Below, piece after piece: positions 30,200-32,304 of a stretch of DNA of 32,422 nucleotides (position 1 is its first letter; every line of letters begins with the position of its first letter). Below the pieces are notes generated by a model. It did no database searches. It saw nothing but the letters and a program-made list of their open reading frames with translations, and was not told where the DNA came from. The stretch spans positions 1 to 32,422 of the forward strand of contig JAACET010000007.1 of NCBI GenBank assembly GCA_011682385.1, written 5' to 3'. The stretch is from Actinomycetota bacterium (lineage in GTDB: Bacteria; Planctomycetota; Phycisphaerae; JAACET01). The translations under genes and the position numbers were made by a program.

Positions 30200-30595
30200 C
30201 CTCAACAAGCCAACACATAATAGACAAGCAGACATATCGACAGTCCAGTCGATGATGTTGCCGGATCTGCCCTGGATAAAAGATTGTACAAACTCATCGA
30301 GTGCCGCATAAGCCGCGATCGCTCCCACCAGTAGCCACGTTTTCTTCGATCGCAAATGAGTATTGTGACCCAATCCAGCGTTTAGGAAAACCAATAAGGT
30401 GAGTACGAAATAGGCTCCCAGGTGTACGCCCACACCGGAGACGGTAACATTTTTCGGTACATAGTCCTTGGGAATATGGCTGATAATGAAGATTGTCGGC
30501 CAATACACACACAGCCCAACCAGGGCCAGTCTGGACCTCTGGCCGGTGCGATGCTTTTGGGGCGGGCCCAGCTCAGCCTTGGACACTTTGGTCAT
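30167..30595 (-). CDS. VanZ family protein
   Basis: 142 aa small membrane protein; FIISHIPKDYVP, AAYAALDEFVQSFIQGRSGNIIDWTVD typical of VanZ-like proteins. Confidence 0.82.
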   Translation of the reverse strand: MTKVSKAELGPPQKHRTGQRSRLALVGLCVYWPTIFIISHIPKDYVPKNVTVSGVGVHLGAYFVLTLLVFLNAGLGHNTHLRSKKTWLLVGAIAAYAALDEFVQSFIQGRSGNIIDWTVDMSACLLCVGLLRLLTGIRQGRG

Positions 30596-31697
30596 CTGTA
30601 TAGGTCTCGGGGTCTTGGAAGTGATGTTGAGGTTCGCTGGGCGGGATTTGCTCTGCTGGCTCTATATTTTGGGCTGAACTGCTTGCGGCTGGAAACACCT
30701 CAGGCGTATCTTCAGTAAGGTCCGCTGCCTCTGCTGGAACGGTTGTTACCTCGGATACACTTGGCTCAGCGGGGGCAAGTGGTTCGACATTCTCGCCTAA
30801 TACTATCGTTTCGGTTTCTTGCGTTTGGTCCGGATTGACAGCCTCACTGGCCTGGACATCGGATACTTGAGATACTTCTGCCGACGGCTCTTCTTCGGCC
30901 GATCGTACCCCCCACCAGATGAGTAGCTCCTGGGCCAGTGCCTCGTAGTCTTCAGCTCCATGGCAGGACGGTGAGTATTCGAATATGGTTTGGCCATGAC
31001 CTGGTGCCTCGGCCAGCCTGATGTTTCGGCGGATAGGTGTGTTGAAAATGCGAGACCCTTGCCACAGGGATTTAAGCGGGTGTTCACTCTTGAAGAACCT
31101 AGCCACTTCCTTGGACACCTCGTCGCACAGTGCTGTCCGGGAATCGTAGAGGCACAGCAACACGCCGGTGATGGATAGATCGGCATTGATCCGGCGTTGG
31201 ACAAGGTTGACTGTCTCAAGTAATTTACCCAGTCCTTGCAGAGCCAGAAAATGTGGCTGCAGTGCGATGAAGACTTCACGTACTGCCGATAGGGCATTAA
31301 TAGTCAGCAGGCCCAAGCTGGGCGGGCAATCGATCAGCAACACGTCGAAGAGTTCTTTGGCCGGATACAGGGCATCGCGGAGCAGTATTTCCCGGCCGAC
31401 CACCCCAACCAGTTCGACTTCCGCACCCGCTAAGTCGATCTCAGCCGACACCAGGTCCATATTAGGCCGAACCGTGCGGAGACATTCTTGGAGACTTGCC
31501 GAACCTCCCAGTAACTCGTAGACGCTGGGTTTGGCTTTGCCGGGCTCGAGCCCCATATGTATAGTCAAATTAGCCTGGGGGTCCAGGTCTATCAGACAGA
31601 CTCGCTGACCGGCCCTGGCCAGAGCTGCTCCCAGGTTTACAGTCGTGGTGGTTTTGCCGACCCCACCCTTCTGATTGGTAATGGCTATGCTTCGCAA
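30573..31697 (-). CDS. ParA/Soj family ATPase with long acidic C-terminal extension
   Basis: 374 aa; NQKGGVGKTTTTVNLGAALA, LIDLDPQANLT, LIDCPPSLGLLTINAL; about 110 residues of E/P/S/T-rich, Lys-free sequence after the ATPase core. Confidence 0.92.
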   Translation of the reverse strand: MRSIAITNQKGGVGKTTTTVNLGAALARAGQRVCLIDLDPQANLTIHMGLEPGKAKPSVYELLGGSASLQECLRTVRPNMDLVSAEIDLAGAEVELVGVVGREILLRDALYPAKELFDVLLIDCPPSLGLLTINALSAVREVFIALQPHFLALQGLGKLLETVNLVQRRINADLSITGVLLCLYDSRTALCDEVSKEVARFFKSEHPLKSLWQGSRIFNTPIRRNIRLAEAPGHGQTIFEYSPSCHGAEDYEALAQELLIWWGVRSAEEEPSAEVSQVSDVQASEAVNPDQTQETETIVLGENVEPLAPAEPSVSEVTTVPAEAADLTEDTPEVFPAASSSAQNIEPAEQIPPSEPQHHFQDPETYTDDQSVQG

Positions 31698-31978
31698 GTT
31701 ATTGAAGCTCCTTCTCCGGACATGACAACAGGCTGGATTATAAGGCCGGGCCCACTTGAAGGCAAGGCTCTGCCCAGCCGACTGCTGTCCCCTTCCGCCT
31801 CAGGTGTGCTAAGCCGCTGGGCCCCATCCTGTTACGGCACCTGCCGAGCTCGGTTCTCCGACAATCCGGATATCTGCCATCTGTGTGTCGGATACAGCCT
31901 GGACCTTCGCAGCCGGCCGCAGTAGAGCGGGTTATTCGGATAGGCTCTAAGTGCAGCGGGCTTCTTTTGCCGGCGCAC

Positions 31979-32023
31979 AAAAAAAGAACGGAAGGTTTCG
32001 CCGTGGCTTGAAACCTCCCGTTC
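31979..32023 (-). terminator. Rho-independent terminator for the Lys-rich microprotein gene
   Basis: Minus strand GAACGGGAGGTTTC - 10-nt loop - GAAACCTTCCGTTC followed by TTTTTTT: 14-bp stem including one G.U pair that exists only on the minus-strand transcript. Confidence 0.85.
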
Positions 32024-32118
32024 CACAACTCAGAATGCCGCTTCGTTTTTGCCGTGGCGGCAAAGCTGTGTCCCCGATCCTTCGGGAACTTGCTCGCTAC
32101 TCAGCGAGCTACGACAAA

Positions 32119-32247
32119 CTACTTCTTACGTTTCTTCTTGGCTTTCTTTTTAGCTTTCTTCTTGGCTGTTTTCTTCTTAGCTGGTTTCCTCTTGGCTGTT
32201 TTTTTCTTAGCTGTTTTCTTTTTAGCAGCTTTCTTTCTCTTTGCCAT
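32119..32247 (-). CDS. 42-aa Lys/Ala-rich histone H1-like microprotein
   Basis: Translated by hand: MAKRKKAAKKKTAKKKTAKRKPAKKKTAKKKAKKKAKKKRKK*. Below the ORF track cutoff; strong SD, promoter and terminator flank it. Confidence 0.85.
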   Translation of the reverse strand: MAKRKKAAKKKTAKKKTAKRKPAKKKTAKKKAKKKAKKKRKK

Positions 32248-32253
32248 TACACA

Positions 32254-32262
32254 TCACCTCCT
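32254..32262 (-). promoter_or_regulatory. Perfect Shine-Dalgarno of the microprotein gene
   Basis: Minus strand AGGAGGTGA, 6 nt before ATG at 32247. Confidence 0.85.
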
Positions 32263-32275
32263 TTCTTAAATATGA

Positions 32276-32304
32276 ATGCTAGGGGCGTCAAAAAAGGCTG
32301 TCAA
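32276..32304 (-). promoter_or_regulatory. Sigma70-type promoter of the microprotein gene
   Basis: Minus strand TTGACA - 17 nt - TAGCAT, preceded upstream by A/T tracts at 32308-32336. Confidence 0.7.

Follow-up and report, generated by a model that had tools for sequence, protein, structure and literature searches.

The window analyzed here, a 32,422-nucleotide stretch of DNA (contig JAACET010000007.1 of assembly GCA_011682385.1), carries close to the end of the contig (G000:C52) a short minus-strand transcription unit, which encodes a Lys/Ala-rich microprotein and is followed by a parA gene with a separate promoter. The region comprises the following features:

32276-32304, minus strand: sigma-70 type promoter, TTGACA-N17-TAGCAT, with the A/T-rich GTTTACTTTTTTTGAAAAAAAGG in front; kept in loci L003 and L004
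32253-32264, minus strand: extended Shine-Dalgarno (SD) sequence, AAAGGAGGTGAT, identical in three congeners
32119-32247, minus strand: open reading frame (ORF) of the Lys/Ala microprotein, 42 aa, MAKRKKAAKKKTAKKKTAKRKPAKKKTAKKKAKKKAKKKRKK
32054-32269, plus strand: antisense ORF, 71 aa, a shadow of the Lys-rich frame and not taken as a gene
32025-32118, minus strand: structured 3' untranslated region (UTR) with three hairpins (about 32092-32109, 32070-32089 and 32025-32069)
31979-32024, minus strand: terminator hairpin with loop GCCACGG (32001-32007) and T run; match to covariance model R1 (E 2.3e-12), with covariation
31737-31765, minus strand: separate parA promoter, TTGCCT-N17-TATAAT
30573-31697, minus strand: ParA/Soj ATPase gene (Pfam AAA_31, E 5.5e-55), downstream of and outside the microprotein transcription unit

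A preliminary description of this DNA had proposed a missed gene for a 42-aa peptide, strongly signaled by a promoter, an SD sequence and a terminator of its own. Its translation was reproduced exactly from 32247-32119; our recount of the composition (25 Lys, 3 Arg, 9 Ala, 3 Thr, 1 Pro and 1 Met) retains the three Arg residues and corrects the reported 26 Lys to 25. The promoter was found at 32304-32276 and matches the consensus at 10 of 12 positions; promoter-like sites number four in the region compared to 0.3 in shuffled sequences. AAAGGAGGTGAT is complementary to the usual 16S tail over 12 nt, whereas the 26 larger ORFs of the window reach only 3-7 nt. The terminator (31985-32024, minus strand) consists of 15 bp, a 2-nt bulge, two further bp (GC/GC) and a CACG tetraloop, and was not listed by a simple terminator scan with a loop limit of 8 nt. 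As a GC-rich hairpin followed by a T run, which recurs in rows of alignments A4 and A5, it has the build of an intrinsic terminator. A second GCCACGG is located at 32052-32058 in the 3' UTR, and the 3' region of the microprotein gene folds with -68.1 kcal/mol (z -6.2). The antisense ORF likewise lies where it had been described.

A 54-base repeat, which has several copies in the class, is found at 31899-31952 of the window and at about 1501-1690 of L031. It matches one end of a short inverted-end element (AGAGCCTATCCGAATAAC ... GTTATTCGGATAGGCTCT) in contig G000:C87 and, lying between parA and the terminator of the microprotein gene, resembles the remnant of a MITE-like element.

Two genomes of the same genus, G001 and G002, carry the unit upstream of the same parA, with DNA that is 76% identical to that of the window. 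The encoded proteins (50 and 52 aa) start alike behind the same SD sequence, and length differences among the three congeners are multiples of three. Promoter, SD, reading frame and terminator are all kept at the same place in both genomes and are therefore not due to chance; the check on relatives that the preliminary description had called for thus came out in favor of the gene. The 3' region is conserved over its length in the three congeners. In 17 pairs of related units, substitutions at codon positions 1, 2 and 3 number 44, 33 and 140, and 105 codon changes are synonymous versus 58 nonsynonymous, a third-position bias that shows selection on the peptide. Judged by these sequence comparisons, the Lys/Ala ORF is a real gene. 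Neither the 42-aa protein nor its longer relatives matched a Pfam or NCBIfam family, and the 42-aa protein had no match among PDB sequences at E values up to 1, and thus none to a histone fold. The relatives of the G001 and G002 ParA proteins are overwhelmingly from Planctomycetota; the records concerned, CSMAG_1421 and CSMAG_2756 (L032 and L033), are titled Actinomycetes, which is a misfit.

The GCCACGG loop is common to terminators behind Lys-rich ORFs, and the covariance model R1 was built from ten of these. In a first scan R1 matched in 51 of 120 class genomes. Among 398 Phycisphaerae genomes it matched in 127, nearly always at one place per genome, in large scans whose stricter filters limit sensitivity, such that a missing match does not mean a missing hairpin. 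Where a second row was obtained, it was mostly the same palindrome on the opposite strand, G466 and G481 being two-contig cases. Roughly two in three class genomes lack an R1 match, and some of these have Lys-rich ORFs with other terminators. Of 238 genomes sampled across the phylum, six outside the class had an R1 match, one of them with GCCACGG and none with a Lys-rich ORF.

Over 86 distinct rows, the covariation of the stem amounts to 0.617, compared to 0.088-0.158 when the stem is slid along the alignment, and 230 cells are changed on both stem sides, compared to 59.5 in shuffles; having been aligned to the structure, these rows are biased towards the stem, but the ungapped alignment A5 agrees. 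Most units have a CACG tetraloop, replaced by CGCG in G033, UACG in G343 and G588, and others in some units of families f20 and f16; from its sequence, the GC-CACG-GC loop would have the shape of a YNMG-type tetraloop. Rfam 15 covariance models gave no match in the window region at E values up to 1, and at gathering thresholds only unrelated tRNAs in 15 other units. A known RNA family was ruled out by the missing Rfam match and a generic terminator by the near-uniqueness of the R1 match in each genome.

Association with a Lys-rich ORF was assessed in fresh matches, i.e. R1 matches that were neither rows of the model nor picked for a Lys-rich ORF or parA. Such an ORF lies 14-185 nt upstream in 22 of 30 and 65 of 72 fresh matches (together 87 of 102), while the antisense control yielded none in 72. 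The matches without ORF comprise family f19 (11 genomes), G592, G018 and G555, the last two with hairpin loops that differ from GCCACGG; outside f19, the ORF is present in 87 of 91, mostly with a perfect SD. One further ORF, with a weaker SD, was found by eye in G618.

The short-ORF search in related genomes that the preliminary description had suggested thus returned 107 units of the same build across Phycisphaerae, corroborating the claim of a missed gene. Their ORFs encode 12-133 aa (median 29), the minimum of 12 aa being reached in family f22. All 107 start with ATG and the SD match has a median of 11 nt, in a search that scored start codon, SD, position and strand and favored ATG in ties. 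Over these units, 56% of the residues are Lys and 21% Ala, a composition that was itself selected because the search demanded Lys-rich ORFs; all four Ala codons are in use (GCA, GCC, GCG and GCT 224, 284, 151 and 281 times). From these comparisons, the Lys/Ala gene and its hairpin look like a unit that spans Phycisphaerae in nearly single copy, rather than a one-off.

A survey of 110 genomes with a ParA match found parA immediately preceded by a co-oriented Lys-rich ORF (18-206 aa) in families f1, f2, f3, f5, f6, f8 and f10, and no Lys-rich ORF on the opposite strand of the same 700 bases. The 206-aa relative is parA-linked and lacks the hairpin, and the Lys-rich genes of f2 and f5 carry other terminators. 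In the genomes compared, the best ParB match is on other contigs or far off. Many units have no parA downstream and adjoin other genes, among them, as sequence resemblance suggests, a gpmI-like gene (f6) and a nadD-like gene (f16), with others in f3.

Family f19 keeps the hairpin nearly unchanged (GATGGAAGGT...GCGCCACGGCTAGACCTTCCATC). A promoter-like stretch precedes it, and the interval between them lacks a Lys-rich ORF. At least in G111, a 75-aa Lys-rich ORF is present at another place in the genome. The hairpin being kept without the ORF, the alternatives are a relocated ORF and an RNA with its own function; the RNA may therefore matter by itself. Further loops recur in the 3' UTRs, in counts that are inflated by the relatedness of the sequences. 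Of 22 f6 units, 19 carry CGUGGC (0.98 expected), which is complementary to GCCACG, and all 22 carry GGCUCC (1.20 expected); a second GCCACGG is present in 10 of 13 units of f14 (0.19 expected) and 3 of 3 of f1 (0.02 expected). A complementary CGUGG loop is not enriched in f19 (3 of 11, 1.34 expected). The CGUGGC of f6 could kiss the GCCACGG hairpin in a predicted kissing loop.

Taken with ORFs that shrink to 12 aa, these observations lend weight to an explanation in which the GCCACGG RNA, as a regulatory or protein-binding RNA, holds the conserved function and the Lys peptide is second or dispensable. However, an ORF accompanies nearly all fresh matches outside f19, the codon-position bias indicates selection on the peptide, and f2 and f5 have retained Lys-rich genes in front of other terminators. 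We regard this explanation as doubtful, albeit a serious contender. A dual-function RNA, in which a class-wide, nearly single-copy transcript combines the GCCACGG hairpin with an encoded chromatin-type polycation and one lineage is RNA-only, is a tentative proposal that we hold possible at clearly less than even odds.

We instead favor, with a probability of about one half, a strongly expressed polycation that resembles an H1 tail, stands alone and condenses nucleic acid, its mRNA being terminated, and probably regulated, by a structured 3' UTR. The product would be a polycation of repetitive Lys/Ala sequence, disordered and about 12-130 aa long, and the strong promoter and unusually long SD suggest a high output. 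Most likely, the peptide would be a sequence-unspecific binder of DNA, perhaps also of RNA, and would contribute to nucleoid condensation in the manner of an unattached histone H1 tail, with a histone-fold protein as its companion in the window's genome. A nucleoid or RNA-binding role had been put forward in the preliminary description and is suggested by the composition. The last hairpin of the 3' UTR, with its GCCACGG loop, would end transcription and, via a partner that binds the loop, probably also determine how stable the mRNA is or how it is regulated. Eukaryotic histone mRNAs encode a basic chromatin-type protein and bear a conserved 3' stem-loop; the likeness is one of working plan only, with no homology claimed, and the hairpin described here differs in sequence and structure and is also built like an intrinsic terminator with a T run.

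The histone-fold-like protein of the window's genome (63 aa, MAKKAKKEVLVV..., G000:C108:24628-24801, L364) is 62% identical to a domain in G009 that matches HLp of Leptospira (PDB 9QT0). Such histone-fold proteins have been reported from Planctomycetota (PMC12701072). The window genome's own histone has a short tail only, MAKKAKKE, and the histone-fold-like proteins of G009, G055 and G018 (L355, L356 and L021) have Lys-rich N-terminal tails (MAKKKAKKK...) that resemble the microprotein, which, unlike these proteins, is without a histone fold. Tails are said to be generally absent from prokaryotic histones. In G055, a 508-aa ORF (L011, 79-1602) resembling DNA topoisomerase I contains a Lys-rich stretch, apparently at its end.

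With its Lys/Ala low-complexity composition, maintained over the 107 units, the product resembles the H1-like Lys-rich proteins of bacteria. The chlamydial protein Hc2 (HctB) binds DNA, and the number of its Lys-rich pentamers sets a length of 165-237 aa (PMC2848022). Like the microprotein, it is a Lys-rich repetitive polycation of variable length; the microprotein differs in its 12-133 aa, nearly single copy, 3' RNA hairpin and occurrence in Phycisphaerae, and homology is not demonstrable. The C-terminal KPAA domains of AlgP and PhaF are H1-tail-like, Lys-rich and disordered, and fragments of them bind DNA (PMC9239181). They are, however, domains of larger proteins, whereas the microprotein stands alone without a folded domain.

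For condensation of the nucleoid speak the histone-fold protein in the window's genome, the Lys-tailed histones in other families and the parA neighbor; by analogy, so may the DNA binding of the Lys-rich, H1-like AlgP and Hc2. Against it speak the smallest ORFs, which at 12-20 aa are short for a nucleoid protein, the ORF-less hairpin of f19 and the many class genomes that lack an R1 match. Moreover, composition alone does not separate DNA binding from binding of RNA, polyphosphate or ribosomes. The peptide might coat RNA, polyphosphate or ribosomes, with starvation or condensates as conceivable settings: its pure Lys/Ala composition suits any polyanion, and the H1-like AlgP associates with polyphosphate granules (PMC9239181). 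As the parA linkage and the similarly tailed histone-fold proteins point, if weakly, to the nucleoid, we consider such a role outside the nucleoid unlikely.

The order of short Lys ORF, terminator and parA in several families would also fit a leader peptide or attenuator, in which translation of the Lys codons controls the terminator ahead of parA. However, parA has its own promoter-like site with a TATAAT element, many units have different neighbors, such as gpmI-like or nadD-like genes, the ORFs extend to 133 aa, and the hairpin loop is kept where parA is absent; a parA leader is therefore ruled out as far as we can judge, with very little probability left to it. Least probable of all, to a nearly negligible degree, is a purine-rich repeat that is open by chance in one frame and untranslated, an artefact that low-complexity sequence might suggest and that the uniform ATG starts, long SD matches, use of all four Ala codons, third-position bias and hairpin association strongly disfavor.

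The nucleic acid-condensing polycation that we favor and its RNA go beyond the preliminary description in several respects: a terminator that is conserved as an RNA element, a class-wide, nearly single-copy unit with parA linkage in several families, and one family, f19, that retains the RNA minus the ORF. A few bacteria are known to have Lys-rich proteins of the H1-like type. No equivalent microprotein, down to 12 aa, in many families, with its own RNA hairpin and beside parA, was found in the databases and open-access literature searched, and the unit looks like a so far unrecognized combination of a putative DNA- or RNA-binding microprotein with an RNA. It would indicate a class of genes missed through annotation length limits and low-complexity filters, and, as the host class also has histone-fold proteins, it offers a way to test directly the minimal complexity at which a chromatin-type protein still functions.
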